Shown here piece after piece: positions 46,601 through 61,893 of a stretch of DNA of 64,000 bases. This DNA is from Jiella flava (GTDB lineage: Bacteria; Pseudomonadota; Alphaproteobacteria; Rhizobiales; Rhizobiaceae): the NCBI RefSeq assembly GCF_017349315.1, contig NZ_JAFMPP010000001.1, forward strand, positions 496,001-560,000, in the 5' to 3' direction. A program made the translations under genes and the position numbers. A model generated the notes under the pieces. It saw nothing but the letters and a program-made list of their open reading frames with translations. It was not told where the DNA came from and did not search any database. Position 1 is the first letter of the stretch; every line of letters starts with the position of its first letter.

Positions 46601-47342
46601 GCTGTCGATGCTTGCGCCGGAGATTTTGCCGCCGCGGCCGCTGTCGCCGTCGCTCGCCGGCGCCGCCGCCGAAATCCTGCCCGAGCCGCAGGCCGAGGCG
46701 GACGAAACGCCGCCGCCCCACCCCTCGCCGGTGCTGAGCGCCGCAGCCATACCGTCCTTGGCGATTCGCCGTGGCCTGGCCGCCCACCGCATGCTGGAGT
46801 TTTTGCCCGATCTTGCGCCTGAGGATCGTCCGCGGGCTGCGCGTGCGATTTTGACGGCGCTCGCCCACGACCTGCCGGTGGATGAGGGCGAGGCCCTGAT
46901 GCGGCAGGTGCTGGCGGTGATGGCAGAGCCCGCCTTCGCGCCGATCTTTGCGCCGGGCAGCCGGGCCGAGGTGGCGGTGGCCGGCGACGTCACGCTCGCC
47001 GGCAGACAGTTCACCGTCAACGGCATGATCGATCGTCTGGCGGTCACCGCCGACGCGGTGCTGATCGTCGACTACAAGACCAACCGCCTGGCGCCACGCG
47101 ATCTTTCCGCCGTCCCCGACGCCTATGTCGTGCAGCTGGCGCTTTATCGCGCGCTGATCCAGCCGCTCTATCTGGGCAAACGCGTCGACGCGGCGCTGAT
47201 CTTTACCGAGGCGCCGCGGCTGATCGCCATTGCGCCGGAGCGGCTGGATGCAGCGCTCGCCAAGCGCCCGGCCTCCAATGCCGCAAGCCCCACTGTTTCA
47301 ACCGCGAAAACGCAGCGTCCGACGAATGGCGACCTTGCTTGA
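43674..47342 (+). CDS. addA: Double-strand break repair helicase-nuclease AddA
   Basis: 1222 residues. UvrD/Rep-type ATPase and nuclease subunit. Walker [16 protein letters not shown] near residue 32; [15 protein letters not shown] (motif Ia) near 62; [13 protein letters not shown] (motif II) near 418; [18 protein letters not shown] (motif III) near 455; [16 protein letters not shown] (motif V) near 818 and [13 protein letters not shown] (motif VI) near 901. The C-terminal nuclease has [16 protein letters not shown] near 1128. Coupled to addB by a 4-nt overlap and followed by trxA after 56 nt. Confidence 0.96.
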
Positions 47343-47398
47343 ATTGCTTCAGCAGCAAGGCTACCTATTCGAACGAACCATCACATGAGGAGCCGGAT

Positions 47399-47716
47399 AT
47401 GGCCACCAAGAAAGTCGATGCCCAGAACTTCAAGACCGACGTGCTCGAAAGCGACAAGCCGGTGGTCGTCGACTTCTGGGCCGAGTGGTGCGGGCCGTGC
47501 AAGATGATTGCGCCGAGCCTCGAAGAGATCTCGGAAGAAATGACCGACGTCGCCGTCGCCAAGATCAATATCGACGAGAACCCGGATATCGCCGCCCAGT
47601 TCGGCGTGCGCTCGATCCCGACGCTTTTGCTGTTCAAGAACGGCGAGCCGGCCGCGGTGCAGGTCGGCGCCCAATCGAAGTCGAAGCTCGTCGACTGGAT
47701 CAAGGGCGCGGCCTGA
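47399..47716 (+). CDS. trxA: Thioredoxin 1
   Basis: 105 residues from the ATG at 47399 (GAGGAG site at 47387-47392). Cytoplasmic disulfide reductase. [20 protein letters not shown] holds the W-C-G-P-C redox site at residues 32-36, and [10 protein letters not shown] the conserved cis-proline near 75. Length and motifs are those of bacterial thioredoxin 1. Last gene of the conserved addB-addA-trxA run; folC, which usually follows within a few kb in this order, is here about 15 kb away. Confidence 0.96.
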
Positions 47717-47934
47717 GCCGTATCGCTCCCATCGCTCCGTGACGGTCCGCTGCATTTGCCCGTCTGGCTCGAAGCGATAATTGGCGGCGCCCCTACGGCG
47801 GAATAAGCTCACAAACATCCATCAGCCGACTTGGTGACTTGGTATCGGGCGAGACAACGTATCGACGCTCCATACCTGGATCGCCCTGCGTCCGGTCGGA
47901 CGCGGAACGGTCGCTCTACCCCTTTGAATCGACG

Positions 47935-47972
47935 CATCGGCCCGAAAATCGATTCCGATTTTCGGGCCGATG
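47935..47972. repeat. REP-like palindrome, copy 3 (perfect)
   Basis: 17-bp perfect arms: CATCGGCCCGAAAATCG, loop ATTC, CGATTTTCGGGCCGATG. The best copy of the family found at 5996, 36254 and 61794. Confidence 0.85.
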
Positions 47973-47999
47973 TTTTAGCGCGTCCTGAACATCAGGCGG

Positions 48000-48242
48000 A
48001 TCGGGATCCGGCGTTTCGATGGAGTTGCAGCATTCTTCTAACTGGACGCGGCCGAGGAGGATGCTGATCTTGTTCCAGAGATCGTCGACGGTTTGCCGTT
48101 TTGGCCGATGCAGCAGATGCTTGAGCTTGGCGAAGGCCTGTTCGATCGCGTTGGGATCGGGCGAATAGGGCGGCAGGTGGAGCCTTTCGCCGCCTGCCGC
48201 TTCGATCAATCCGGTGACATGAGCGCCGTTGTGGGCGGTGAC
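48000..48242 (-). pseudogene. IS630-family transposase remnant (C-terminal part)
   Basis: The reverse strand encodes AHNGAHVTGLIEAAGGERL, then LPPYSPDPNAIEQAFAKLKH and a TVDDLWNKI stretch: the D-N/H-x-x-x-H ... PPYSPDxNPIE ... K-x-x-L pattern at the end of IS630-type DDE transposases. Only about 80 residues are left. The N-terminal HTH and the first catalytic aspartate are missing, the usual DN start is HN, and no terminal inverted repeats were found. The frame continues into the neighbouring REP palindrome, so the element is a dead fragment. Confidence 0.75.
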
Positions 48243-48369
48243 GCGCCTCTTGGCGTTCGAAGCGTTTTCAGCTGGAATTTTCCACGGATGATCCCGGAAT
48301 CGGGACGATGAGAATTCCATGAAGAAGTCAACGTTCACAGCGGCGCAGATCGCTTTCATGTCAAAATAG

Positions 48370-48692: not shown

Positions 48693-49367
48693 CTAAAAGT
48701 TTGTGCCTTCAAGAATATCCATGCGCATCGCTTCGGCGGCGGCTCCGCCGTCTCTTGATACAATCGCATCATAAACGTCTCGGTGCCGCCGAGCGGAAAT
48801 AAAGAACAGAGCTTGATTGGGCACAGTTCGCCGCACCGATGGCCCGATATGCATCCACAACGGCTCAAGGATATTTTTGATAAAGGAAATTTTGCTCATT
48901 TCCGCGACTTGCATGTGGAAATGATAGTTCGCTTCCAGGAAAAGGTCGACGTCATCTTGCTCCGTCGATTTCTCGATTTCTTCGACATAAGATAGCAGGA
49001 TCTCCAATTCCTTTTCGCTTCGATGAACCGCAGCTTGTTCGGCAGCTGCTCCCTCCAAAATGATCCGCAACGTACAAATGTCACCAAGCTGCTTCGCGCT
49101 GAATTCCGGAACCATCATAGTTCGGTTTGCTGCCGAAACGACGCAGCCGACACTTTCCAATCGCTGCAGCGCATCTCGAACAGGCATCAGGCTTGTGCCG
49201 AGACTTTGAGCGAGTCCGCGCAACGGCAACTTTTGGCCCGGCACGAACCGGCCCATCATCAAGTTGCGCTTCATCTGGTTGTAGATTTGTTCGTGCAGCA
49301 TCTCCCGAGACACGGGAGCGAGATCGGGGTCTAGCTGCACATCAATTGCTTTTTGGTCGCCAGCCAA
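48693..49367 (-). CDS. GntR-family regulator with FCD domain (FadR subfamily)
   Basis: 224 residues; TTG start at 49367 with AAAGGA 10 nt upstream. Winged-helix domain in residues 18-85 (LHEQIYNQMKRNLMMGRFVP, LPLRGLAQSLGTSLMPVRDA) and an all-helical FCD ligand-binding domain, with N-Y-H-F-H near residue 148 and a later R-R-H-R-D-V-Y. FCD regulators bind an organic acid through a metal and are usually repressors of the divergent catabolic operon. The intergenic region contains two GTTATAAC palindromes, the expected operators. Probably controls pxpA and the following genes. Confidence 0.9.
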   Translation of the reverse strand: MAGDQKAIDVQLDPDLAPVSREMLHEQIYNQMKRNLMMGRFVPGQKLPLRGLAQSLGTSLMPVRDALQRLESVGCVVSAANRTMMVPEFSAKQLGDICTLRIILEGAAAEQAAVHRSEKELEILLSYVEEIEKSTEQDDVDLFLEANYHFHMQVAEMSKISFIKNILEPLWMHIGPSVRRTVPNQALFFISARRHRDVYDAIVSRDGGAAAEAMRMDILEGTNF

Positions 49368-49392
49368 GGTGAATTCCTTTCGGTGCTATTTC

Positions 49393-49402
49393 TGTTATAA
49401 CA
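49393..49402. promoter_or_regulatory. Operator candidate 1 (TGTTATAACA)
   Basis: A perfect palindrome just before the GntR gene start. The GTTATAACAC core is repeated at 49458, 64 bp centre to centre, about six helical turns. Likely binding sites for the adjacent FCD regulator. Confidence 0.6.
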
Positions 49403-49457
49403 CTAAACGACAAACTTGACTCAAGAGAAAATCACCGTCACATTTGCGATTAAATCC

Positions 49458-49465
49458 GTTATAAC
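49458..49465. promoter_or_regulatory. Operator candidate 2 (GTTATAAC)
   Basis: The GTTATAACAC core recurs here, 26 bp before the pxpA start, placed to block transcription of pxpA. Same orientation as site 1, which allows looping between the two bound dimers. Confidence 0.6.
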
Positions 49466-49490
49466 ACCAGACGGAACGGGGGAACGAGGA

Positions 49491-50213
49491 ATGGTCACGC
49501 TGAATTGTGACATGGGTGAGAGCTACGGGAATTGGCAATTCGGCGACGACGCCGGGATCATGCCCTACGTCGACTGCGCCAATATCGCCTGTGGCTTCCA
49601 CGCCGGTGATCCCATCACGATGCACAAAGCTGTCGCGCTCGCTGTGGATCACGGCAAAGATATCGGTGCGCACCCCTCCCTGCCTGATCGAGAAGGGTTT
49701 GGCCGGCGCGAGATGCGGCTGCCGCCTGAAGAACTTCGGGCCGCCTTCATCTACCAGATCGGCGCCCTCGCCGGCGTTGCTCGCGCGCACGGCGCGTCCC
49801 TGTCTCACGTCAAGCCACACGGCATCATCTATGGAATGGCGGCTCGCGAGGACGTCTACGCAGTCGCAATAGCCCAAGCCGTGAAAGTCTTCGATCTTCC
49901 CCTTTTCGGAATGGCGGGCACTCAGCACGAATTAGCCGCGGAGGCGGTCGGCGTTCCCTTCGTGGGGGAATTCTTCGCCGATCTCAATTACGGGCCTGCG
50001 GGCCAGCTGATCATTCCGCGCATTCATTCTGCCATCGATCTCGACAAGGCATCGGCACGGCTCGCGCGCGCCCTGGCGGAGGGCAAGGTCCAGTCCGTGG
50101 AAGGTAACGACGTCGATATCCGATTTTCCACCGTTTGCATTCACTCAGATCCCCCGAACTCCCGAGAAGTTGCCGCTACCATGCGCCGTGTATTGGATAC
50201 CGTAAAACGGTAG
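49491..50213 (+). CDS. pxpA: 5-oxoprolinase subunit PxpA-like (LamB/YcsF family)
   Basis: 240 residues from the ATG at 49491, which is directly preceded by GAGGA. Family signatures: LNCDMGESYGNWQFGDD at residue 3, CANIACGFHAGDP near 29, IGAHPSLPDREGFGRREM near 58, VKPHGIIYG near 104, FFADLNYGPAGQLIIPR near 158. Catalytic histidines and aspartates of the carbohydrate-deacetylase-like fold are intact. With PxpB and PxpC it opens a cyclic amide. It stands apart from pxpB/C, separated by the transporter and aminotransferase genes. Divergent from the GntR gene. Confidence 0.9.
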   Translation: MVTLNCDMGESYGNWQFGDDAGIMPYVDCANIACGFHAGDPITMHKAVALAVDHGKDIGAHPSLPDREGFGRREMRLPPEELRAAFIYQIGALAGVARAHGASLSHVKPHGIIYGMAAREDVYAVAIAQAVKVFDLPLFGMAGTQHELAAEAVGVPFVGEFFADLNYGPAGQLIIPRIHSAIDLDKASARLARALAEGKVQSVEGNDVDIRFSTVCIHSDPPNSREVAATMRRVLDTVKR

Positions 50214-50279
50214 TCCAAAGGGGCGTGAAGACCCCGATCTATAGGGAAAAGCTAAATCTCAACAGAGGAAAATAGAAAT

Positions 50280-51356
50280 ATGAAGAAGCTTCTCTTGTCC
50301 GGTATCATGGCATTACTTGCCGGAACGTCAGTCAGCGTGGCGGCATATGCTGCCGATGGCCCTGAAAAATTCCCCGTTCAATTGGTTGACGGTGACAAGA
50401 AGACGGATTCCGAATGGACGCTACTCAAAAAAGATGAGGTGAAGAAGCCCTGGAATATTTGCGTCCTCTTCCCGCATTTGAAGGATAGTTATTGGGTTGC
50501 GGCAGATTACGGCATCGCCGATGAAATCCATCGTACCGGCACTGCGATGACCCTCTACGAGGCCGGCGGTTACACCAACCTGTCGACGCAGCTCTCGCAG
50601 CTCGACAACTGCATTGCGCAAAAGTTCGACGGCATTATTCTTGGCGCCATCAGCGCAGACGGCGTCGGCCCGCTGGTCAAGAAGGCGACGGACGCCGGAA
50701 TTCCGGTCATCGATTTTGTGAATGGCGTCAACGAGCCGAGCGTGTCTGGCCATGCTCTCGTATCGTTTTACGATCTGGCTTACACGACCGGCAAATATCT
50801 GGTCGATCAGGCGAAGGGAAAGAAGCAAGTGGTCGGCTTTTTCCCCGGGCCACAGGGCGCTGGCTGGTCCGACGACGCCGTGAGGGGCTTTAACGACGCC
50901 ATCAAGGGTTCGTCGGTCGAGCTGGCCGTGACAAGGCGCGGCGATACCGGCCTGAACACGCAACTCGACCTGATCAACAATGCCCTGCAGACTTATGACA
51001 ACATCAACTGGCTGGTCGGCGTCGACATTGCTGCTCAGGCCGCGGCTGTCGCCGTCAGAAACGCAAACATGCAGGGCAAAATCAACGTCGCGGCGTTCGA
51101 TATTATTCCGCCGGTGTATGACGACATCGCAGCGGGAGCGACAAAAGCGTCGCCAACGGATTTCACGGTGCTCCAAGGCCGGCTCGCTGTCGACATGATC
51201 CTGAGGTTGCTCGAAGGCCAGAAGCTGGCAGCCAAAAGGGCTGGGCCGAAGCCTGAAATGGTCACCTCGGACAACTATAAGGACTTCACCAAGACCGACA
51301 TGTTTGCGCCAGCCGGCTATCAGGTCGAATTTTCGATCGAAGCGACGAAAAAGTGA
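50280..51356 (+). CDS. ABC transporter periplasmic binding protein, TorT-like
   Basis: 358 residues. Signal peptide MKKLLLSGIMALLAGTSVSV with cleavage near AYA-ADG. The type I periplasmic-binding fold follows: ICVLFPHLKDSYWVAADYGI near residue 60, YEAGGYTNLSTQLSQLDNCI near 96, DGIILGAISADGVG near 118. It resembles TorT and the galactose/ribose-binding family rather than amino-acid binding proteins. It belongs with the ATPase and permease that follow (3-4 nt overlaps). The ligand is not predictable from sequence; the locus points to a small neutral or zwitterionic amide. Confidence 0.85.
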   Translation: MKKLLLSGIMALLAGTSVSVAAYAADGPEKFPVQLVDGDKKTDSEWTLLKKDEVKKPWNICVLFPHLKDSYWVAADYGIADEIHRTGTAMTLYEAGGYTNLSTQLSQLDNCIAQKFDGIILGAISADGVGPLVKKATDAGIPVIDFVNGVNEPSVSGHALVSFYDLAYTTGKYLVDQAKGKKQVVGFFPGPQGAGWSDDAVRGFNDAIKGSSVELAVTRRGDTGLNTQLDLINNALQTYDNINWLVGVDIAAQAAAVAVRNANMQGKINVAAFDIIPPVYDDIAAGATKASPTDFTVLQGRLAVDMILRLLEGQKLAAKRAGPKPEMVTSDNYKDFTKTDMFAPAGYQVEFSIEATKK

Positions 51357-52891
51357 TGCCGGTTCAAACTCATGCGGTGGAGGGCGAGGTGTTTGCCTCG
51401 CTCTCCAACGCATCCAAATTTTACGGCAGCTTTGCGGCCCTCAAGGATGTGAGCATCAAGCTTTCCTGCGGTGAAGTGCATATGCTCCTCGGCGAAAACG
51501 GAGCGGGCAAGTCAACGCTCGTCTCCCTGCTCACCGGAACGAACAGACTTGACGAGGGCAAACGGACTCTTCGTGGTGCCGATTGTCCAAACCTCACGCC
51601 GCTTGAAGCGCGTGAGGCGGGCATCAACACCGTCCTCCAGGATTTTGGTCTGGCGCCGACGCTTACGGCCGTCGAAAATTATACGCTTGGCCGAGAGAAA
51701 ACAAAGGGCGGGTTTCTCGATAAGGCGCAAATGAGGGCCGACATGATCCGAGCGATGGAAAAGCTCGGAGTTTCCATCGATCCGGACGCACGCGTCGACA
51801 CTCTCACCCGTGCGGAGCAACAACTTCTGGAAATTGTTCGGGCCCTTGGTGGGAAGCCTGGCGCGCTCATACTCGACGAACCAACGGCCACGCTGAGCCA
51901 TGACGAATCCGAACATCTCTTTTCGGCGGTTCAGCTATTGCGCAGCGAAGGCTGGGCTATTCTTTATATCAGTCACCGAATGGAAGAAATTCGGCGGCTG
52001 GGCGATGTCGTCACGATCCTCCGTGATGGTCGGTTTGTCGGGTGCCACCGTCTTGCAGACGTCAGCAACGACCAGATGATCACCGAAATGGTCGGGCGGG
52101 AGATGGCGAACTTCTATCCGGAAATTCCCCACAATCCCACGACAGTCGCCCTTGAGGTCAAAGGGCTTTCTTCTGGCCAGAAGGTCAGGGACATATCTTT
52201 TGCCGTTCGGGCGGGGGAGATTGTCGGGCTCGGTGGGCTGGTGGGCTGCGGCAAGGCGGAAGTGGCGCGTGCCATATTCGGTCTTCAGCCGATCGACGAT
52301 GGCCAGGTCATCGTTGCCGGGACTCGCATTTCAAAGCCGACGCCTGCCGCCATGCTCGATTGTGGCCTGGTCTATCTGCCGCAAGATCGTCGCGGCGAAG
52401 CGCTCGCTCTTAACCGCTCTGTCGCCGAGAATATTGTCGTAGAGGTCCTAGGCGAGAAAAATTCCGCGACTGCTGGCTTTGTAAAGACCTCCGTCCTCGG
52501 CCGTCTTGTCGCGGACGTTATGACAAGGCTCAAGGTGCAGCCGGCAGAGCCGAGAAAGCTCGTCCAAGAACTTTCCGGCGGCAATCAACAAAAGGTGGTT
52601 CTTGGTCGCGCTTTATCGCGCAGCAGAAAAATTTTCGCCTTTGACGAGCCCACTGCCGGCATCGATGTCGGCGCGCGACTGGACTTTTATAAACAGCTCC
52701 AGCAGCTCTGCGCCGAGGGTGCAGCCATTCTTTTTATCAGTTCCGACCTGCAAGAACTCGTTCATCTTTCCCATCGGATCTACGTCATGCACGAGGGCTT
52801 CTGCACGGCCGAACTCGACCAAGGTCAGATCACTGAGGAACGCGTAATTGCCTACGCATTCGGCGAAAAACCGAAAGAGGACATTCAATGA
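51356..52891 (+). CDS. Sugar-type ABC transporter ATP-binding protein (two ABC domains)
   Basis: 511 residues; the stop of the binding protein and this ATG share one base (TGATG; GTG at 51353 possible). RbsA/XylG type. Domain 1: Walker A LLGENGAGKSTLVSLL near residue 43, Walker B LILDEPTATLS near 171 and a weak signature (TRAEQQLLEIVRAL). Domain 2: degenerate Walker A GGLVGCGKAEVARAIFGL near 295, strong signature LSGGNQQKVVLGRALSRS near 405 and FAFDEPTAGIDVGARLD near 426. This asymmetry is normal for the family. Energises uptake with the permease downstream. Confidence 0.93.
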   Translation: MPVQTHAVEGEVFASLSNASKFYGSFAALKDVSIKLSCGEVHMLLGENGAGKSTLVSLLTGTNRLDEGKRTLRGADCPNLTPLEAREAGINTVLQDFGLAPTLTAVENYTLGREKTKGGFLDKAQMRADMIRAMEKLGVSIDPDARVDTLTRAEQQLLEIVRALGGKPGALILDEPTATLSHDESEHLFSAVQLLRSEGWAILYISHRMEEIRRLGDVVTILRDGRFVGCHRLADVSNDQMITEMVGREMANFYPEIPHNPTTVALEVKGLSSGQKVRDISFAVRAGEIVGLGGLVGCGKAEVARAIFGLQPIDDGQVIVAGTRISKPTPAAMLDCGLVYLPQDRRGEALALNRSVAENIVVEVLGEKNSATAGFVKTSVLGRLVADVMTRLKVQPAEPRKLVQELSGGNQQKVVLGRALSRSRKIFAFDEPTAGIDVGARLDFYKQLQQLCAEGAAILFISSDLQELVHLSHRIYVMHEGFCTAELDQGQITEERVIAYAFGEKPKEDIQ

Positions 52892-53907
52892 CAAATGCAA
52901 GATCTTCGGCGGGCAATGCGCCATCCACTCCAGCGAATGCGGTCTCCAAGCTTCTCAGCTTCGGTGCGCTTCCGATCGTCCTCATAATCTGCATCATCAT
53001 TTTCCAGATTGGCAATCCGCGTTTTCTGTCTGCACCCAATGTGTTGAACATGACGCAGCAAGCCGTCTACTTGCTGCTGATCGCTTTTGGCCAAATGCTC
53101 GTGTTGCTGGCCGGTGGATTTGATCTGTCGGTCGGTGCCGTGGTGGCTCTCACGTCAATCGTGTCCGCGAAGGTCATGGTTGCTGTCTCGCTCGCCTATC
53201 CGGACGCGCCGTACCTGACCATCACCGCCGGATTTCTGGCAACGATGTTGGTTGGTCTTGCCTGCGGCTGGGTCAACGGGTTCGGAGTCGCGATTATGAA
53301 GGTGAACGCCTTTATCGTCACCCTCGCAACATCGTCGATCTTCGCCGGGGTGACGCTTGTGACGTCACAGGGCATCCAGGTCTCCGGCCTCCCGCGTGAT
53401 TTTGTCTACGGCATTGGTTCCGGGTATTTCATGGGCCTTCCTGTTTCGCTCTATTTTGCCGTTCCGGCCGTTGCCGCGGTCTTCCTTCTGGTCCGCCATA
53501 TGCGCTTTGGCCGTTACATCTATGCGATCGGCTCGAATGTGAGATCCGCGGTGGTCGCAGGAGTCAACATCAACCGCTATCTGATGGCCTGCTACATGCT
53601 TTGCGCCACCATGACCGCCTTCGCCGGGTGGTTGTTGACGGCCCGCGTTTCATCGGGAGAGCCGATGCTCGGTGGTGAATTCCCACTGCAATCCATTGCA
53701 GCGGCTGTCATCGGCGGATGTTCGCTTCGTGGCGGTGAAGGGTCTCCGTTCGGTGTCCTTCTCGGCGTCATCTTTATCACGGTCGTGAAAAACGGAATGG
53801 ACCTGCTCCGGATCGGCTCGAACTATCAAATGATTGTTTTCGGTGTCGTCCTGGTTGGTGCTGTGGTTCTCGATCGCTACCGACTTGAAAGGGCAGCCAA
53901 GCGCTAG
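52888..53907 (+). CDS. ABC transporter permease, RbsC-like
   Basis: 339 residues, 8-10 hydrophobic segments. Conserved regions of the BPD_transp_2 family: GQMLVLLAGGFDLSVGAVVAL near residue 69, GLACGWVNGFGVAIMKVNAFIVTLATSSIF near 128 and IAAAVIGGCSLRGGEGSPFG near 270. It overlaps the ATPase gene by 4 nt and forms the inner-membrane channel of the importer. One permease gene for a homodimer. Confidence 0.92.
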   Translation: MTNARSSAGNAPSTPANAVSKLLSFGALPIVLIICIIIFQIGNPRFLSAPNVLNMTQQAVYLLLIAFGQMLVLLAGGFDLSVGAVVALTSIVSAKVMVAVSLAYPDAPYLTITAGFLATMLVGLACGWVNGFGVAIMKVNAFIVTLATSSIFAGVTLVTSQGIQVSGLPRDFVYGIGSGYFMGLPVSLYFAVPAVAAVFLLVRHMRFGRYIYAIGSNVRSAVVAGVNINRYLMACYMLCATMTAFAGWLLTARVSSGEPMLGGEFPLQSIAAAVIGGCSLRGGEGSPFGVLLGVIFITVVKNGMDLLRIGSNYQMIVFGVVLVGAVVLDRYRLERAAKR

Positions 53908-53908
53908 A

Positions 53909-53990
53909 GAGCGGACTGCGATGAACCGGAACGCCATAGCGCTCGAAGACTTTGTTGAGCCGCATGGCGGGATCCGAAACGTCATGCAAC
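53909..53990. repeat. 82-bp dispersed element, copy 2
   Basis: Matches 9740-9821. It lies immediately after the permease stop, inside the catabolic island, so the element has spread to both native and acquired DNA or has inserted since acquisition. Confidence 0.65.
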
Positions 53991-54011
53991 GTTCAGCATC
54001 ATGCCCTGAAT

Positions 54012-54052
54012 CCTGTCCCTGTGAAGCCTGTCCCTGTGAAGCCTGTCCATGA
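54012..54052. repeat. 2.7 copies of a 15-bp tandem repeat
   Basis: CCTGTCCCTGTGAAG twice, then CCTGTCCATGA. Lies between the permease and the aminotransferase genes, upstream of the chosen aminotransferase start; probably non-coding. Confidence 0.7.
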
Positions 54053-54107
54053 CACCAAGCGGCCGGCACGGTCCCGCTTCGTCTCCATTCCGTCAAGGAT
54101 TAGTAAA

Positions 54108-55493
54108 GTGACCAACCACATCTCAAATTCACTTGCTCACGCCGATATATCGTCGGTTCTGCATCCCTACACCGACGCGCGCGCCCATGAACGGCAAGGC
54201 CCAGTCGTCATCGACCACGGCAAAGGCATCTATGTCTACGATGATAAAGGGAATGAATACATTGAAGGTCTCGCCGGTCTTTGGTCCGTCGCTATCGGAT
54301 TCAACGAACCACGGTTAGTGAAAACAGCCGCGGAGCAGATGGCGAAGCTCCCCTATTATCACACCTTCAGTCACAAGTCGCACGAACCGTCGATAAGACT
54401 TGCCGAAAAACTGGTTGAGATGACGCCGCCCTCACTCAACCACGTCTTCTTCACGAGTTCTGGCTCTGAAGCCAATGATACCATGGTCAAAATGGTCTGG
54501 TACATGAACAACGCGCTTGGCCGCCCCAATAAGAAGAAGTTCCTGGCGCGCAACAAAGCCTATCATGGAATCACGGTCGCATCCGGTAGCCTGACGGGTC
54601 TTCCCAATAACCATCGGGATTTCGACCTGCCTGCAATCCCGGTCCGGCATCTGACATGTCCGCATTTCTATCGGTTTGCGGAAGAAGGCGAAACGGAAGT
54701 CGAATTCGCCGCTCGCTTAGTCGCTGAAGCGGAGGCGGCAATTTTAGAGGAAGGGCCGGAGACGATCGCCGCTTTCATCGGCGAGCCTTTGATGGCTGCG
54801 GGTGGCGTGATGGCGCCGCCGGAAGGCTACTGGCAGGGCATCGAAGCTCTCTGCCGCAAGTATGATATATTGCTTGTTGCTGATGAAGTAATCTGCGGCT
54901 TTGGACGGCTCGGAACAACTTTCGGGTGCGAATACTTCGGCTTCACGCCAGACATCATGATCACATCGAAGCAGCTAACCTCGTCCTACATGCCGCTTGC
55001 CGCAATCGTCTTCTCTGACGATGTTTACAACGCGATTGCGGACAACACGGCAAAAATCGGAACATTTGGCCACGGCTTTACCGCTTCGGGCCATCCGGTC
55101 GCAACGGCTGTGGGGCTTGAGAACCTAAAGATCATCGAAGAGCGCGAGCTTGTGGCGAATGCTGCAAAGGTCGGCAGGTTTTTCCAAGCTCGCCTGCGAG
55201 AACTCGCCGATCATCCGCTGGTTGGTGAGGTCCGGGGCATTGGATTGATCGCGGCGGTCGAAATGGTTGCCGACAAGCAGACCAAGCGGCCTTTTGCACA
55301 ACCGGGTAAGATTGGCGCGACGGCCTTTTCCGCGACCCAGGAGCACGGATTGATCGTCCGAGCGATCGGAGATTCGATCGCGCTTTGCCCGCCTCTCATT
55401 ATCGATGAGGTTCAGGTCGATGAGTTGGTGAATCGGTTGAAGAAGGCGCTTGATGACGTTGCTGAATGGCGATCTTCTGAGAACTTCAACTGA
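54108..55493 (+). CDS. Class III omega-aminotransferase
   Basis: 461 residues from the GTG at 54108, with AAGGA upstream; a longer frame reaches back through tandem repeat sequence and is unlikely. Fold type I PLP enzyme of the omega-amino-acid:pyruvate group: DDKGNEYIEGLAGLWSVAIG near residue 45, FFTSSGSEANDTMVKM near 115, LLVADEVICGFGRLG near 255 with the PLP aspartate, and TSKQLTSSYMPLAAIVFS near 284 with the Schiff-base lysine. Transfers the terminal amino group of an omega-amino acid to a keto acid, giving a semialdehyde. Fits between the ring-opening genes and the aldehyde dehydrogenase. Confidence 0.9.
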   Translation: MTNHISNSLAHADISSVLHPYTDARAHERQGPVVIDHGKGIYVYDDKGNEYIEGLAGLWSVAIGFNEPRLVKTAAEQMAKLPYYHTFSHKSHEPSIRLAEKLVEMTPPSLNHVFFTSSGSEANDTMVKMVWYMNNALGRPNKKKFLARNKAYHGITVASGSLTGLPNNHRDFDLPAIPVRHLTCPHFYRFAEEGETEVEFAARLVAEAEAAILEEGPETIAAFIGEPLMAAGGVMAPPEGYWQGIEALCRKYDILLVADEVICGFGRLGTTFGCEYFGFTPDIMITSKQLTSSYMPLAAIVFSDDVYNAIADNTAKIGTFGHGFTASGHPVATAVGLENLKIIEERELVANAAKVGRFFQARLRELADHPLVGEVRGIGLIAAVEMVADKQTKRPFAQPGKIGATAFSATQEHGLIVRAIGDSIALCPPLIIDEVQVDELVNRLKKALDDVAEWRSSENFN

Positions 55494-55509
55494 AGAGGCG
55501 GGGGAAGAC

Positions 55510-56385
55510 ATGATCTATGACCAACCAAGATTCATGCCAGCGGGAGACCGCTATGTGCTGATCGAGTTTGGCAACGAGATGAATCTCGACCTGAATTTTT
55601 TGGCGCAGGGCTTGGCGACGGCGGCTGCCAATGCCGAAATTGGCGGAGTTATTGAAACGGCGCCATGCTTTGCATCGCTGCTCGTTCATTACGAGCCGAC
55701 GCAGATCGGCTATGACGATGTTGTTCGAGAATTTCTGCAGCTGAGTGCCGCGCTAGGATCGTCAGAGGATATCGAGCTCGAAAGTCGGCTTTTCTATCTG
55801 CCCGCGCTTTACCTCGACCCTTGGACGAAAGCCTGTGTTGACGATTACTGCGCCAAAATTGCCAAGAAGGCGCCAGACGCCGAACTCGTGGTTCAAGAGA
55901 ACGGTCTGGACAATGTCGAGCATCTCGTCCGTCTGCATTCCTCTTCCGAATACTGGGTTGCGTCGCTTGGTTTCTGGCCCGGCCTGCCATTTCTCATGGC
56001 GCTCGATCCCAGAGCGAGATTGACGGCTCCGAAGTACAACCCGCCGCGGACGAATACCCCAAAAGGTGCGATCGGTCTTGGCGGTGCGGCCAACTCCATC
56101 TACCCGGTTGCGACCCCTGGCGGCTATCAGATCTTTGCGCGAACCCCGGTCCCGATTTGGGACCCGACCGGCCGACAGGAGGTATTTGAGGGAAGCCTGT
56201 GCCTCTTCAGGCCAGGGGATCGAATCAAGTTCGTGCCGGTCACCCGTGATGAATACGACGCTTGCGAGGCAGCGTTGAACGACGGCCGGTACAGTTACAC
56301 TGTTGTCGAGTATCAGAAATTCGGAGTCAGAAACTACAAGAAATGGGTTTCAAAACTGGATAAAAAGACGGGAGCGGCGGCATGA
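55510..56385 (+). CDS. pxpB: PxpB-like carboxyltransferase-domain protein (KipI family)
   Basis: 291 residues from the ATG at 55510. Diagnostic motifs: RFMPAGDRYVLIEFGNEMNL at residue 6, VRLHSSSEYWVASLGFWPGLPFLMALDP near 145 and YPVATPGGYQIFARTPVPIW near 200. This matches PxpB/KipI and the first half of the urea-carboxylase carboxyltransferase domain. About 50 residues longer than typical PxpB, with a C-terminal tail (VVEYQKFGVRNYKKWVSKLD). The stop overlaps the pxpC start. Expected to combine with PxpC into the active site that uses carboxybiotin. Confidence 0.88.
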   Translation: MIYDQPRFMPAGDRYVLIEFGNEMNLDLNFLAQGLATAAANAEIGGVIETAPCFASLLVHYEPTQIGYDDVVREFLQLSAALGSSEDIELESRLFYLPALYLDPWTKACVDDYCAKIAKKAPDAELVVQENGLDNVEHLVRLHSSSEYWVASLGFWPGLPFLMALDPRARLTAPKYNPPRTNTPKGAIGLGGAANSIYPVATPGGYQIFARTPVPIWDPTGRQEVFEGSLCLFRPGDRIKFVPVTRDEYDACEAALNDGRYSYTVVEYQKFGVRNYKKWVSKLDKKTGAAA

Positions 56386-57356
56386 TCAAGATCTTGAAAG
56401 CTGGCCTCGAAACCTCAGTCCAGGATTATCCTGGCCGCATCGGCTACTGGAATCAAGGATTTCCGCCTTCCGGCCCTATGGACAGTTGGTCCTTTCGAAT
56501 GGCGAATGTGCTCGTGGGCAATGCGCCGGGTGCCGCTGGCTTCGAGTGTCAGTTCCTTGGCCCCACGCTGCAGTTTGGTGAAGATACCGTCATCGCCATA
56601 ACCGGGGCTGATATGACCCCGGCAGTCGACGGTGAAGCGGTGCCGCTTTGGCAATCCCTCGCCGTCAAGGCGGGCCAGACGCTTGTGCTCTCGGGGGCCC
56701 GCGTCGGTGCGCGCGCCTATATCGCATTTGCCGGCGGTTTGGCGAACCCGGAAATGCTCGGCTCGCGGTCCACATTCAACAAGGCGGGCGTGGGCGGCAT
56801 TGACGGACATTCGGTAAAGCCTGGGCAGGAATTACCGCTGTTCCAGGGAGACGGCACTCCCGGGCTCAAAGTCCCGGATAATCTTCGCCCGCAGATCCGC
56901 ACCGACAAAACCTGGGACATTGAGGTGTGCGCTGGCCCGAACGACGACTGGATCGACGAGGCCGGCCATGAGCGGTTCCTCACATCGCCCTGGACCCTTT
57001 CCGCCAAATCGGACCGGACCGGCTTTCGACTGGAGGGACCGGAGTGGACCTTCACGCAAAAGGCCACCAACAAACCGAGGGAACATGGTTCGTTGCCGTC
57101 GAACATCATCGATCATGGCTATCCGATGGGTGCGATCAATCTTGCCGGACAGACACCCATCATTCTCGTCAACGACGGACCTTCCATGGGCGGTTTCATC
57201 AACCCATACACGGTTCCATCATGCGCATTTTGGAAGCTCGGTCAGTCTAAGCCCAACGAGACCTTCAAATTCAAGCTCGTCAGCGTATCGGAGGCGCAAG
57301 ATCTCGCACTGCAGATCGCCAAGCGCTGCGTCGCCGAAAACTTAGTCAAAGCATAA
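56382..57356 (+). CDS. pxpC: PxpC-like biotin-dependent carboxyltransferase family protein (KipA family)
   Basis: 324 residues, ATG overlapping the pxpB stop by 4 nt. Begins with the family signature ILKAGLETSVQDYPGRIGYW, then GFPPSGPMDSWSFRMANVLVG; continues ARVGARAYIAFAGGLANPEM near residue 108 and GYPMGAINLAGQTPIILVND near 245. Homologous to the second half of the carboxyltransferase domain of urea carboxylase. Full length. Followed after 15 nt by the biotin carrier gene, which supports a biotin-dependent function rather than the biotin-free PxpABC of E. coli. Confidence 0.9.
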   Translation: MIKILKAGLETSVQDYPGRIGYWNQGFPPSGPMDSWSFRMANVLVGNAPGAAGFECQFLGPTLQFGEDTVIAITGADMTPAVDGEAVPLWQSLAVKAGQTLVLSGARVGARAYIAFAGGLANPEMLGSRSTFNKAGVGGIDGHSVKPGQELPLFQGDGTPGLKVPDNLRPQIRTDKTWDIEVCAGPNDDWIDEAGHERFLTSPWTLSAKSDRTGFRLEGPEWTFTQKATNKPREHGSLPSNIIDHGYPMGAINLAGQTPIILVNDGPSMGGFINPYTVPSCAFWKLGQSKPNETFKFKLVSVSEAQDLALQIAKRCVAENLVKA

Positions 57357-57371
57357 AGAGAACAACTGATT

Positions 57372-57608
57372 ATGGCAAAACAGCTTCTTTCCCCGCTTCC
57401 AGGTGTATTCTACCGCCGACCCTCTCCAGACGAGGCAAACTTCAAGAATGACGGTGACGCCGTCGCTGCTGGCGACACGGTGGGGATCGTGGAAGCCATG
57501 AAGTCCTTCTTTCCGATTGAGGCGGAAGAAGCAGGTGTCGCGATCCGCTTTTTAGTCGAAGACGGAGCTGCCATCGATGCTGCCCAGGCAATCGCCGAGA
57601 TGGATTGA
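57372..57608 (+). CDS. Biotin carboxyl carrier protein (short, stand-alone)
   Basis: 78 residues. LLSPLPGVFYRRPSPDE starts a biotinyl domain, followed by VEAMKSFFPIEAEEAGVAI with the biotinylated lysine at residue 43 (E-A-M-K-S in place of the usual E-A-M-K-M) and a second half-domain V-E-D-G-A-A-I-D-A-A-Q-A-I-A. Nothing but the biotinyl domain is present; AccB of fatty-acid synthesis is twice as long, so this is a dedicated carrier for the neighbouring carboxylase. 6 nt upstream of the biotin carboxylase gene. Confidence 0.93.
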   Translation: MAKQLLSPLPGVFYRRPSPDEANFKNDGDAVAAGDTVGIVEAMKSFFPIEAEEAGVAIRFLVEDGAAIDAAQAIAEMD

Positions 57609-57614
57609 GCGGCC

Positions 57615-58982
57615 ATGACGATCAAATCACTCTTCATCGCAAATCGCGGTGAGATCGCCGTGCGTATCATCAAGGCGGCGAAAGCCTTGGGGATACGCAC
57701 GATACAAGCAGCGAGCGAAGCTGACACCGGATCGCTCGCATGTAAACTCGCTGATGACGTTGTCGTAATCGGACCGCCGCAGGCTGCGAAATCCTATCTC
57801 GACATCGACGCGGTCGTCGCCGCAATAACGGCAAGCGGCGCGGATGCGGTGCATCCCGGCTACGGCTTTCTTTCGGAAAACCCTCGATTTGTATCCGCAG
57901 TCCAAGCTGCCGGGGTGATATTCGTCGGGCCCGATGCCGAGACGATCGCGAAGATGGGCGACAAGGCCACGGCACGCGCAGAAGCGATAGCTGCCGGCGT
58001 GCCGGTTGTTCCGGGCAGTGAAGGCCTGATCAGCGACCTCAATGATGCTCGCGCGCAGGCGCGTCGCATCGGCTATCCTGTGATGATCAAGGCAAGCGCT
58101 GGCGGCGGCGGGCGAGGTATCCGCATTGTCGATGATGAAGCATCACTTGAGACGTTGGTGCCACAAGCCATGGCGGAGGCCCGAGCGGCCTTTGGCAACG
58201 ATAGCCTGTATATGGAGCGCTATATCTCGCGTGCTCGTCACATCGAGGTGCAGGTGCTCGGGGACGGAACCGATGTGGTGCATCTTTTTGAGCGGGAATG
58301 CTCGCTGCAGCGCAAGCGGCAAAAGGTATGGGAAGAGGCGCCAGCCGCGAACTTGCCGCAGCGCGTTCGTGACGCGATCTGTGCCTCTGCCGTGGCTCTT
58401 GCAAAAAGGGTGCACTACAAAAATGCCGGCACGCTCGAATATCTTTACGACAGCGAGACCGAGGAATTCTTCTTCATCGAGATGAACACCCGGATCCAGG
58501 TTGAGCATCCTGTGACGGAAGCGATCACCGGAATCGATCTTGTTCAAGCTCAGCTGCGTGTCGCAGGGGGTGAGCGCCTTTGGTTTTCGCAATCCGACAT
58601 CGAAGCGAAGGGGCACGCGATCGAGGTGCGCATCAACGCCGAGAACCCGCTGAAGATGTTCATGCCGTCGCCGGGACTTATCACTGGCTATGCTGCACCA
58701 GCAGGTGATGCGGTCCGTTTCGATACACTGTTATACGACGGTTATCAGATTGCGCCGTATTACGATTCGCTCGTCGGAAAGCTGATTGTTGCGGCTAACG
58801 ATCGCGCGTCGGCAATCGACGCTCTGACGAGTGCCCTTGATACTCTCAAGATCGAGGGGATTCATACGACCGTCCCGCTGCATAAGGCACTCGCCAGCAA
58901 TCCGGAGGTTCGCAACGGTCGTTTCCATACCGCATGGTTGGAAGGCTGGATGGGGGCAGGTGGTCTGTCTGCCAAATCTTGA
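57615..58982 (+). CDS. Biotin carboxylase subunit, dedicated to the lactam/amide system
   Basis: 455 residues, AccC-like. IANRGEIAVRIIKAAKALGI at residue 8; ATP-grasp loop ASAGGGGRGIRIV near 160; HIEVQVLGDG near 209; ECSLQRKRQKVWEEAPA near 229; EMNTRIQVEHPVTEAITGID near 287 with the catalytic E-M-N-x-R and H. It carboxylates biotin from bicarbonate and ATP. Full-length without fused carrier or carboxyltransferase domains. With the preceding three genes it completes a split urea-carboxylase-like enzyme. A housekeeping accC is expected elsewhere in the genome. Confidence 0.94.
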   Translation: MTIKSLFIANRGEIAVRIIKAAKALGIRTIQAASEADTGSLACKLADDVVVIGPPQAAKSYLDIDAVVAAITASGADAVHPGYGFLSENPRFVSAVQAAGVIFVGPDAETIAKMGDKATARAEAIAAGVPVVPGSEGLISDLNDARAQARRIGYPVMIKASAGGGGRGIRIVDDEASLETLVPQAMAEARAAFGNDSLYMERYISRARHIEVQVLGDGTDVVHLFERECSLQRKRQKVWEEAPAANLPQRVRDAICASAVALAKRVHYKNAGTLEYLYDSETEEFFFIEMNTRIQVEHPVTEAITGIDLVQAQLRVAGGERLWFSQSDIEAKGHAIEVRINAENPLKMFMPSPGLITGYAAPAGDAVRFDTLLYDGYQIAPYYDSLVGKLIVAANDRASAIDALTSALDTLKIEGIHTTVPLHKALASNPEVRNGRFHTAWLEGWMGAGGLSAKS

Positions 58983-58987
58983 GCGTC

Positions 58988-59039
58988 GGATGATGCCGGC
59001 GAAAGATCGCTGGCGTCATCCGTCGCCTTCGGCGCGACG
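58988..59039. terminator. Convergent hairpin region after the biotin carboxylase gene
   Basis: GGATGATGCCGGCG pairs with CGCTGGCGTCATCC (12 of 14) around GAAAGAT, followed by a CGTCGC/GCGACG hairpin. No strong T-run, but the position between convergent genes supports transcript ending. Confidence 0.4.
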
Positions 59040-59065
59040 GACTCGACCAAAGTCGGGAGGGACGT

Positions 59066-59734
59066 TTAGGGGCTCGGGTCACCGAGAATTGCATGACGCG
59101 AATCGGTGATGTGTTGAAACATAATGGTTTCGGCATGACGACCGTCGCGGTCTAAGATCGCCTGATAGATCTCCTGATGCTGGGCAGCATAGCGCGCCAT
59201 GCGATCGGTCGTGAGCGACACTTCTTTCATCCTGCCCCACAGTCTGCCCGAGCGGACGGCGTGGATTGACTCATAAATATTGTTCAACAAGTTGTTGCGG
59301 GCAGCTTGAACGATAAGGCGATGAAAAAGCGCGTCACAGTTCTCGAAATCGATAAAATTGAATGCAATGCTTCCGAGTTCGATGGCTTTCCGCATCTCTT
59401 CAATATCATAGGGCGTTGCTCGCAATGCGGCGATTGCGGCCGCCTTCGGTTCCACGATCAATCGCGCCTCGAAAACCTCGGCTGGATATGTCCGAACGAC
59501 GAGCTTCTGCTGCTTGAAGGAACTCTTCTGTGCCGAGCGGAGACGATCATCGGCAAGAAATGTCCCCCGTCCCACATGGCGGATTAGGCGCCCGTCTTGC
59601 TCCAGCTTCGCCAGCTGCCGGCGCAACGCTGTTCGGGGGAGCCCGAGTTTCAGGGACAAGTCGCGTTCCGGCGGGAGCCGTTCTCCAGGCCCTATGCCTT
59701 CTGCGACGATAAAATCTTCCAATAAGCCGCTCAT
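59066..59734 (-). CDS. Second GntR-family regulator, FadR/FCD type
   Basis: 222 residues from the ATG at 59734, with GGGAGA upstream; a much longer frame would extend through the promoter and into the divergent gene. HTH: PPERDLSLKLGLPRTALRRQ near residue 20, then LEQDGRLIRHVGRGTFLAD. The FCD domain begins near residue 80 (FEARLIVEPKAAAIAALRA) and shows D-A-L-F-H-R-L and a later A-Q-H-Q-E-I-Y. Divergent from the aldehyde dehydrogenase; the space between holds a TACCAAT-3-ATTGGTA palindrome and repeated ACCAAAT half sites. It may respond to a pathway intermediate (semialdehyde or dicarboxylate). Confidence 0.87.
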   Translation of the reverse strand: MSGLLEDFIVAEGIGPGERLPPERDLSLKLGLPRTALRRQLAKLEQDGRLIRHVGRGTFLADDRLRSAQKSSFKQQKLVVRTYPAEVFEARLIVEPKAAAIAALRATPYDIEEMRKAIELGSIAFNFIDFENCDALFHRLIVQAARNNLLNNIYESIHAVRSGRLWGRMKEVSLTTDRMARYAAQHQEIYQAILDRDGRHAETIMFQHITDSRHAILGDPSP

Positions 59735-59785
59735 TTTTCTCCCAAATTGCCCAACCAATTTGATCTGGATTGACACCAAATACAA

Positions 59786-59802
59786 TACCAATTTTATTGG
59801 TA
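59786..59802. promoter_or_regulatory. Operator candidate TACCAATTTTATTGGTA
   Basis: Perfect 7-bp arms around TTT between the divergent GntR and dehydrogenase genes. ACCAAAT half sites flank it at 59775-59781 and 59806-59812, and a CCAATTTGAT lies near 59755. Likely binding site of the adjacent GntR protein. Confidence 0.6.
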
Positions 59803-59840
59803 GCAACCAAATAAACGCTACTCTCCCTGGAGAAAATGTC

Positions 59841-61334
59841 ATGCCGAAGACGGTTGGTCTCGAGTCGAGCATCGAAGCGGAAAGCGCTCTTGAACTTGCT
59901 TCACGGGCTCCGAACACAATGCTCATCGATGGAGATTGGTCGGGCGGAACCAATTCGAATTGGTTTGATGTCATTGATCCAGCCGACGGCTCAAAGATCG
60001 CATCCGTCGTCAATGGAACCCAGGACGACGGATTGCGTGCCGTGGCTGCTGCCGCTTCAGCAGCCGAGGGCTGGAAGGCGAAGTCGCCGCGCCAGCGCTC
60101 TGATATTCTTATGCGATGCTTCCACCTGATGACGGAGCGCGCCGAGTTTCTGGCGAGGCTGATTACGGCGGAGAACGGCAAGGCTTTGCCGGATGCCCGC
60201 GGCGAGGTCTCCTACGCCGCCGAATTCTTCCGCTGGTATGCGGAGGAGTCTCCGCGAGATTTTAGCGAGTTGGCGATCGCGCCCTCCGGCGCAAATCGCA
60301 TCGTCGTTCAGCATCAGCCGATTGGCGTTGCCGTCTTGATTACGCCCTGGAATTTCCCGGCGGCAATGGCGACCCGAAAGATTGCGCCGGCGCTTGCAGC
60401 CGGGTGCACCTGCATCCTTAAGCCCGCGGCGGAAACGCCTCTAACGGCGCTCGCGATTGGGGCGATTATGCTCGAAGCTGGCGTGCCTGCCGGCGTCGTC
60501 AATATCGTCACGACCACCTCCGCCGGTGAGGTCGTGAATGCGATGTTGCATGATCCCCGTGTGCGCAAGCTGTCTTTCACAGGATCGACTGGGGTTGGCA
60601 AAATCCTGCTTAAGGAGGCTGCAGATCAGGTTATCAGCAGCTCCATGGAGCTTGGAGGCAATGCTCCGTTCATCGTGTTTGACGACGCCGACCTGGAAAG
60701 CGCGGTCGCAGGCGCGATGGTGGCGAAGATGCGAAATGGCGGTGAGGCATGCACCGCCGCCAATCGGTTTTACGTCCAGCGTGGCATCTATGATGCCTTC
60801 GTTCAGAGACTGACGGACGAAATGAGCGCCTTGAAAGTGGGGCGGGGATTGGACGCCGGCATCCAACTCGGGCCCCTGATTACGCCGGCCGCTGTGGCGA
60901 AGGTTGAACGGCTCGTTCTCGACGCGGTCAATCGCGGCGCAAAGATCGTCACGGGTGGAACGAAGATTGCAGGGCCTGGTTATTTCTATCCTCCGACCGT
61001 CCTCTCGGAGGTTGTGCCGGGCTCTGACATCCTCAATGAAGAGATTTTCGGCCCGGTCGCCGCAATCATCCCGTTCGAGACGCAGGAAGAAGTGATCGCA
61101 TTGGCCAACAACACCGAATACGGGCTGGTCTCATACATCTATAGCGCGGATCACAAGAGAGCATTTTTTGTTGCTGGAGAGATCGAGTCTGGCATGGTCG
61201 GTGTGAACCGAGGAATCGTCTCGGACGCTGCGGCGCCCTTTGGCGGTATGAAGCAAAGCGGACTGGGCAGGGAAGGCGGAAGGCACGGAATGCTCGAATA
61301 TGTCGAAATGAAATACATCGCAGCCAGTTGGTGA
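59841..61334 (+). CDS. Aldehyde dehydrogenase, succinate/glutarate-semialdehyde type (GabD-like)
   Basis: 497 residues from the ATG at 59841 with GGAG upstream; the long upstream frame crosses the regulator gene. Motifs: VLITPWNFPAAMATRKIAPA near residue 164, KPAAETPLTALAI, FTGSTGVGKILLKEAAD near 243, SMELGGNAPFIVFDDADLE (general base E) near 263 and the nucleophile in GGEACTAANRFYV near 300. NIVTTTSAGEV and GLGREGGRHGMLEYVEMKY at the C-terminus are GabD-like. Oxidises a semialdehyde to a dicarboxylate with NAD(P). Completes the pathway after the omega-aminotransferase. Whether the chain is C4, C5 or C6 cannot be read from sequence. Confidence 0.92.
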   Translation: MPKTVGLESSIEAESALELASRAPNTMLIDGDWSGGTNSNWFDVIDPADGSKIASVVNGTQDDGLRAVAAAASAAEGWKAKSPRQRSDILMRCFHLMTERAEFLARLITAENGKALPDARGEVSYAAEFFRWYAEESPRDFSELAIAPSGANRIVVQHQPIGVAVLITPWNFPAAMATRKIAPALAAGCTCILKPAAETPLTALAIGAIMLEAGVPAGVVNIVTTTSAGEVVNAMLHDPRVRKLSFTGSTGVGKILLKEAADQVISSSMELGGNAPFIVFDDADLESAVAGAMVAKMRNGGEACTAANRFYVQRGIYDAFVQRLTDEMSALKVGRGLDAGIQLGPLITPAAVAKVERLVLDAVNRGAKIVTGGTKIAGPGYFYPPTVLSEVVPGSDILNEEIFGPVAAIIPFETQEEVIALANNTEYGLVSYIYSADHKRAFFVAGEIESGMVGVNRGIVSDAAAPFGGMKQSGLGREGGRHGMLEYVEMKYIAASW

Positions 61335-61849: not shown

Positions 61850-61893
61850 AGAGCGCCCTATCTGCGTCCGATGGGACGCAGATAGGGCGCTCT
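61850..61893. repeat. Perfect 20-bp inverted repeat with 4-nt loop
   Basis: The left arm begins AGAGCGCCC and ends CTGCGTCC; the right arm 61874-61893 is its exact complement, loop GATG. Such a long perfect hairpin with no T-run is unusual for a terminator; it may be an end of a lost mobile element, or an insertion hot spot. Confidence 0.85.

Follow-up and report, generated by a model that had tools for sequence, protein, structure and literature searches.

Positions 48693-61334 of the window analysed here (the whole stretch of 64,000 nucleotides from contig NZ_JAFMPP010000001.1 of Jiella flava, a member of the Rhizobiaceae) hold a block of genes centred on homologues of PxpA, PxpB and PxpC, in which PxpB and PxpC appear to work with a biotin carboxylase and a small biotin carrier encoded beside them. 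This coupling is well supported by comparison with related genomes. On what the block does we are more guarded: we consider it somewhat probable that the block was acquired horizontally and serves as an island for the catabolism of a small lactam, 2-pyrrolidone (gamma-butyrolactam) being the likeliest and delta-valerolactam the next. Whether its proteins also constitute a previously undescribed lactam carboxylase-hydrolase seems to us about evenly balanced; on that proposal N-carboxylation by carboxybiotin would pay for an unfavourable ring opening, and the enzymes would form a separate Pxp branch, widespread in Alphaproteobacteria including SAR11 (with carboxylase and PxpB fused), of which the window's clade would be specialised for lactams of the gamma-aminobutyrate (GABA) type.

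Gene identities were taken from Pfam and NCBIfam profile scans, with bit scores read against each model's cut-off, and all genes of the block are intact and in the expected order (Table 1). An earlier sequence-only reading had listed an importer, PxpA, PxpB, PxpC, a 78-residue carrier, a carboxylase, an aminotransferase, a dehydrogenase and two FCD regulators, and the scans find every one of them in the order given. It had the block run from 49393 to 61334; the right end is kept, and FCD regulator 1 (48693-49367), lying just outside that span, moves the left end to 48693.

The coupling to biotin is seen most directly in gene neighbourhoods. Across 397 genomes of the order, a listing of PxpB matches, sorted into long and short classes by E-value and frame length, was compared with a listing for the dedicated carrier family, counting carriers that score 94 bits or more. 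Of the 56 long PxpB genes, 48 have such a carrier no farther than 4 kb away and two more have one within 12 kb; no such carrier lies within 4 kb of a short PxpB (0 of 56 among the matches listed, weaker matches being left out) or of a urea carboxylase (0 of 38). Seen from the other side, 48 of the 51 carriers adjoin a long PxpB. Six long PxpB genes are left over: three (G168, G009 and G015:C7) adjoin a carrier of another kind, 72-74 residues long, the contig of G262 ends just past the carboxylase, in G248 the parts are divided between two contigs, each bearing an incomplete carboxylase, and the stretch around G015:C14 (locus L101) contains no carrier.

Gene fusion and genomic context point the same way. 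Relatives were collected by one scan of genome contigs with PxpC, and among the resulting 63 loci carboxylase and PxpB form a single reading frame in L025, L026, L029, L034, L036 and L041. All but L041 bear the name Pelagibacteraceae or Pelagibacter and have a 72-residue carrier 3' of PxpC. The fused frames measure 816-819 residues (637 in the cut L041, whose record is named only Proteobacteria), and a published SAR11 cluster adjoining FArhodopsin genes (PMC10308929) is possibly identical with these Pelagibacter-type loci. A plasmid of Thermomicrobium roseum (L129) carries genes for a binding protein, ATPase, permease, carrier, PxpB, PxpC and PxpA next to one whose annotation is biotin transporter BioY. 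This relative in the Thermomicrobiota sits between a molybdenum hydroxylase and bioY, and its lactam could come from the hydroxylation of an N-heterocycle.

The PxpB sequences themselves are consistent with a urea-carboxylase-like role. In a tree of 109 PxpB rows, made by a quick method and with long branches, the 13 short sequences fall on one side of a fully supported branch, and the urea carboxylases together with all long PxpB on the other; the rows are not all independent, as L099/L033 and L098/L012 are the same contigs twice. Lys175, Tyr176, Tyr206 and Gln207 (window numbering), a signature derived in this analysis and not a published criterion, occur in all 58 partnered rows and all 10 urea carboxylase rows, while the 13 short PxpB invariably have Arg175, Trp206 and His207 and mostly Arg at 176. 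A carboxylase or a carrier within 5.5 kb sufficed for a row to count as partnered; the 58 comprise the window, 51 rows with both partners, four with the carboxylase only and two with the carrier only. Among solved structures PxpC is closest to urea carboxylase (211 bits, against 132 for E. coli YbgK). The cut-off of the urea carboxylase model TIGR02712, 1304 bits, is missed by each subunit scored alone (PxpB 185, PxpC 300, carrier 23, carboxylase 512 bits). The catalytic motifs of the carboxylase were read only by eye against those of E. coli.

Several observations weigh against so close a coupling. PxpB taken alone hardly separates the types among solved structures, scoring 105 bits with urea carboxylase, 103 with the short Pyrococcus protein 2phc_B and 81 with E. 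coli YbgJ. Neither carboxylase nor carrier lies within 5.5 kb of the long PxpB in 28 of the 109 tree rows, mostly from metagenome-assembled genomes (MAGs), and these partnerless proteins all keep Lys175, Tyr176 and Tyr206, with Gln207 in only 64%. No partners were seen at L101 or in a group of loci from MAGs, of which some have PxpB-PxpC in tandem and some are truncated at contig ends; no carboxylase was seen in the Thermomicrobium stretch, and G289 has a carrier with no carboxylase in its stretch. A rule that every long PxpB has biotin partners nearby was tried: it is nearly true in the order sample and fails in many MAG loci. At L100 and L099/L033 both partners lie 8-10 kb off, and some partnerless contigs are cut short. 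Carboxylases, candidates for serving Pxp in trans, were found in all eight genomes searched. Tandem PxpB-PxpC pairs in MAGs without a recognised carboxylase, carrier or PxpA nearby were noted at L024, L032, L043, L051 and L052, with hydantoinase, BKACE or enolase-type genes close to those of L024 and L051.

If the carboxylase and carrier instead served an unrelated acyl-CoA carboxylase, PxpABC would work without biotin, an outcome that the sequence-only reading had itself named as contrary to its proposal and that we judge very improbable. The NCBI models PRK07051 and PRK12833, both over cut-off, do label carrier and carboxylase as subunits of "acetyl-CoA carboxylase", PxpABC of E. coli and B. 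subtilis is not known to require a biotin carboxylase or carrier partner, and some long PxpB lack such partners nearby. Yet the Pfam scan finds no acyl-CoA carboxyltransferase among the block genes, and the partner statistics, the carboxylase-PxpB fusion and the signature residues all oppose this assignment. The source genome has six matches to the carboxylase N-domain including that of the block, one of the five others lying in an AccC-sized frame of 453 residues. The split urea-carboxylase-like enzyme proposed earlier is strongly supported by those same three lines together with the closeness of PxpC to urea carboxylase and the bioY gene beside the Thermomicrobium relative.

The same gene set was sought in other genomes, as the sequence-only reading had advised, and four full relatives and one partial set were found. 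The nine genes from pxpA to the carboxylase gene, with an FCD gene, recur in the same order in Rhizobiales AFS002495 (L003), Bradyrhizobium DOA9 (L004), Ancylobacter crimeensis (L005) and Bradyrhizobium sacchari (L006), each of which carries regulator, PxpA, importer, aminotransferase, PxpB, PxpC, carrier, carboxylase and dehydrogenase; in L005 the dehydrogenase gene lies within the block. Their aminotransferases are 80-81% identical to that of the window, and regulator 1 is 59-69% identical in these four and in a fifth relative, G055 (L096), which has the block in order without aminotransferase and dehydrogenase. Because the ordered set recurs in four other genomes, and without two of its genes in G055, the grouping is not a product of chance. 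Aminotransferase and dehydrogenase are present in the cluster in five of six clade members, and in G055 they are adjacent at another locus, L162 (74% and 48% identical to the window's).

Comparison with a congener shows the block to be part of an island. An island of about 14.3 kb lies between trxA and folC and is not present in G349: the alignment covers window positions 47306-47720 (trxA) and picks up again at 62031, after a gap of only some 240 bases in G349, so that about 14.3 kb are extra in the window. The distance from trxA to folC is about 140 and about 280 bases in two of three other family members compared, and in the third trxA was not found within the stretch fetched. The block genes have a G+C content of 52-61%, against 69% for addA and 66% for folC (trxA itself has 60%), and a probable DDE_3 transposase remnant, scoring just under the cut-off, marks the left edge. 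Short perfect palindromes lie near both ends of the island (47935-47972 and 61850-61893, with arms of 17 and 20 bases and a 4-base loop).

Catabolism of a lactam through an omega-amino acid, as put forward in the sequence-only reading, is inferred here as the best explanation of the block. The aminotransferase has its best solved relative in 6g4b, matched over its full length at 629 bits, which we take to be the caprolactam-pathway enzyme PjAT of Pseudomonas jessenii (the entry is titled "aspartate aminotransferase family protein"). In each of the four full relatives the dehydrogenase exceeds the curated cut-off for succinate-semialdehyde dehydrogenase (SSADH), with 672-679 bits against 646, and for this reason 2-pyrrolidone is placed first and valerolactam second. 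The window's own dehydrogenase remains below that cut-off at 568 bits and is 48-49% identical to the relatives' enzymes, and so was probably recruited separately; the step seems to have been kept while the gene was replaced. Of the three lactams named earlier, a C4 (2-pyrrolidone) or C5 ring would fit best, and caprolactam, though less likely, is kept as a candidate because the window's dehydrogenase misses the SSADH cut-off and its aminotransferase is closest to 6g4b.

That dehydrogenase score and the reduced block of G055 count against a lactam pathway of this kind, as does the finding that an aminotransferase of at least 45% identity occurs in just 5 of the 63 loci of the PxpC scan, a set in which several loci are short. 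Since most relatives lack such an aminotransferase, the wider family may act on a different substrate. The literature searched, openly licensed (CC) PMC papers only, yielded neither a description of a biotin-partnered PxpABC nor a reported activity of any biotin-partnered Pxp. Other aminotransferases at least 45% identical lie near long PxpB in L033/L099 (one genome), L100, L101 and L109/L116.

Published work, as far as excerpts of the papers go, describes comparable chemistry. A caprolactamase, an omega-aminotransferase and a GabD-like 6-oxohexanoate dehydrogenase lie in one cluster in P. jessenii (PMC6061476, in part); hydrolysis of caprolactam is uphill by a computed 23 kJ/mol, and caprolactamase requires ATP and bicarbonate (PMC8453981, in part). 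LamB/YcsF proteins have been related to lamB of Aspergillus nidulans, which serves lactams such as 2-pyrrolidinone (an excerpt of PMC3412718), and AmdR of that fungus governs lamA and lamB together with the GABA transaminase gene gatA (an excerpt of PMC8016842).

The proposed pathway would begin with uptake of the lactam by the ABC importer. The biotin carboxylase would load CO2 from bicarbonate, at the cost of ATP, onto the biotin of the 78-residue carrier, and PxpB-PxpC, acting as a urea-carboxylase-like carboxyltransferase, would pass the carboxyl group to the lactam nitrogen (or oxygen), activating the lactam as urea is activated on conversion to allophanate. PxpA, in the place that allophanate hydrolase occupies in urea breakdown, would hydrolyse the activated amide; the carbamate product would then lose CO2 to give the omega-amino acid, a decarboxylation that would pull the reaction forward. 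The aminotransferase would form the semialdehyde and the dehydrogenase the diacid, as from GABA to succinate.

Other substrates must be weighed against a simple lactam. A biotin-dependent 5-oxoprolinase, turning 5-oxoproline into glutamate, would leave aminotransferase and dehydrogenase present for other reasons, and we hold it to be quite unlikely. The proteins are homologous to proven 5-oxoprolinases, but PxpB and PxpC stay under the 5-oxoprolinase equivalog cut-offs (97.1 of 145.6 bits for TIGR00370; 173 of 500 bits for NF045499). PxpC passes the broader TIGR00724 (256.5 against 230.2 bits), and PxpA passes the subfamily models NF003814 (269 against 226) and NF003816 (231 against 213) and misses three equivalog models, with 193-224 of 337-392 bits. 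The block of G055, without an aminotransferase, would suit a 5-oxoprolinase, whereas five of six clade members keep both downstream enzymes. The source genome has no short PxpB, its two PF02682 matches (frames of 314 and 291 residues) both being of the long type, which favours this assignment; the genome does, however, have a separate 1246-residue frame with a hydantoinase B/oxoprolinase domain (four PF02538 matches lie outside the block), so 5-oxoproline may be handled elsewhere. That frame and a second Pxp set on contig C48 make 5-oxoproline the less likely substrate.

We also think it unlikely that the block acts on some other N-C(=O) or N-C(=N) compound (ureido, guanidino, hydantoin-like or a hydroxylated lactam) yielding a longer or substituted omega-amino acid. 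A carboxyltransferase resembling that of urea carboxylase would agree with such a substrate, the CUT2 importer and its TorT-like binding protein hint at a polar one, and molybdenum hydroxylases adjoin related clusters in T. roseum and G209; on the other hand, the aminotransferase family and the relatives' SSADH fit plain omega-amino acids, and no allophanate hydrolase is found among the block genes.

The second Pxp set of the source genome (L102; G000:C48:130000-149000) is biotin-partnered and adjoins hydantoinase A and B genes, with identities to the window of 50% for PxpA, 54% for the carrier, 63% for the carboxylase, 35% for PxpB and 39% for PxpC; 14-19 kb away lies an aminotransferase gene with one in-frame stop, 56% identical to the window's. 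Another genome from the same family has, at L116 (11128-15846) and L109, a second-type Pxp set that comes after a molybdenum hydroxylase, a PxpA (68%) and an aminotransferase (70%) and before a 64% identical dehydrogenase. RuBisCO-like and sugar-kinase-like proteins are encoded between the aminotransferase and the carrier-carboxylase pair in L100 (14123-16725).

Table 1. Features of the block and its left flank, in window coordinates.
Feature	Position	Strand	Score or remark
Probable remnant of IS630-like (DDE_3) transposase	47919..48359	-	PF13358 27.6 bits, E 3e-6, cut-off 28.6 narrowly missed
GntR/FCD regulator 1, divergent from pxpA	48693..49367	-	FCD 79.9 bits, GntR 52.7
Candidate operator copy 1 (GTTATAACACNARAC)	49394..49408	+	Inside gntR1-pxpA spacer
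Candidate operator copy 2	49458..49472	+	Directly 5' of pxpA start
PxpA, LamB/YcsF family, putative carboxylated-lactam hydrolase, 240 aa	49491..50213	+	LamB_YcsF (PF03746) 284 bits
TorT-like substrate-binding protein	50280..51356	+	Peripla_BP_4; TorT model 299 bits, cut-off 200
Two-domain CUT2-type ABC ATPase	51353..52891	+	ABC_tran, two stretches
CUT2-type permease	52888..53907	+	BPD_transp_2
Class III omega-aminotransferase, PRK06105 subfamily	54108..55493	+	Aminotran_3 308 bits; PRK06105 772, cut-off 517; GTG start likely
PxpB, long urea-carboxylase-like type, carboxyltransferase subdomains C/D	55510..56385	+	CT_C_D 157 bits
PxpC, urea-carboxylase-like type, carboxyltransferase subdomains A/B	56382..57356	+	CT_A_B 283 bits
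Biotin carboxyl carrier protein, 78 aa, EAMKS motif	57372..57608	+	Biotin_lipoyl 52 bits; PRK07051 106.8, cut-off 87
Biotin carboxylase, 455 aa	57615..58982	+	N, CPSase_L_D2 and C domains complete; PRK12833 722.6 bits, cut-off 686
GntR/FCD regulator 2 (likely start), divergent from dehydrogenase	59066..59734	-	FCD 84 bits
Succinate-semialdehyde-dehydrogenase-like aldehyde dehydrogenase, 497 aa	59841..61334	+	Aldedh 536 bits; TIGR01780 568, under cut-off 646

From pxpA to the carboxylase gene all genes share one strand and are spaced by -4 to 66 bases, apart from a gap of 200 bases 5' of the aminotransferase gene, and the dehydrogenase gene opens a separate unit. The importer belongs to the sugar (CUT2) class, and its binding protein resembles TorT. 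Although this protein passes the NCBIfam cut-off, its reading as a TorT specific for trimethylamine N-oxide was rejected, because binding proteins of the same type adjoin Pxp clusters in Thermomicrobium, L007, L015, L017, L108 and L122; the label on it and on its kin in Pxp clusters is probably a misannotation.

A clue to the regulation of the operon comes from the gntR1-pxpA spacer, where GTTATAACACNARAC occurs twice (49394 and 49458). Exact copies stand at the equivalent site in L003 (two copies), L004, L005, L006 and L096; the rest of the 163 loci fetched have none, though many of them lack a spacer of this kind. L004, L005 (on the other strand) and L006 also have a second copy with one mismatch, L096 having been examined for exact copies only. 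The two putative operator sites read GTTATAACAC. Allowing at most one mismatch, the 10-base core has three hits in the window, two of them overlapping and all in this spacer, against 0.23 expected, and 1 of 100 shuffles gave as many. Control of the operon through two operators probably lies with FCD regulator 1. The motif was not found at the dehydrogenase gene, which is probably controlled by FCD regulator 2.

PxpABC has been taken for a biotin-free 5-oxoprolinase, and databases call its biotin partners "acetyl-CoA carboxylase". If our proposal is right, a large group of genes, including those of SAR11, is mislabelled and a new biotin-dependent reaction exists. The open question of the PxpBC mechanism would gain a natural test case, with carboxyl transfer as the activating chemistry. 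There would also be a second, unrelated answer to the lactam problem that caprolactamase solves, of use for nylon-type lactams.

Set beside known systems, the block shares with the PxpABC 5-oxoprolinases of E. coli, B. subtilis and C. glutamicum its PxpA, PxpB and PxpC homologues in one operon, and differs in adding its own biotin carboxylase and carrier, in its long PxpB with urea-carboxylase-like residues, and in PxpB and PxpC scores below the equivalog cut-offs. Urea carboxylase has a carboxylase, carboxyltransferase halves homologous to PxpC and PxpB, and a carrier; all four domains are found here, with the K-Y and Y-Q signature in common, but as four separate subunits instead of a single chain. 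The block has a LamB/YcsF hydrolase in place of allophanate hydrolase, and the Pfam scan finds no amidase or allophanate hydrolase among its genes. The A. nidulans lamA/lamB/gatA genes of the AmdR regulon, although fungal, likewise pair a LamB family protein for 2-pyrrolidinone with a co-regulated GABA transaminase (excerpts of PMC3412718 and PMC8016842). With the caprolactam pathway of P. jessenii (CapAB, PjAT and a GabD-like dehydrogenase) the block would share the order of the chemistry, an omega-aminotransferase and a GabD-like dehydrogenase (PMC6061476 and PMC8453981, in part), as well as ATP, and there too bicarbonate, for ring opening (PMC8453981, in part). Hydantoinase/oxoprolinase A and B subunits of the CapAB type were not found in the block, and caprolactamase, which belongs to that unrelated family, would stand as a parallel for activation by carboxylation.

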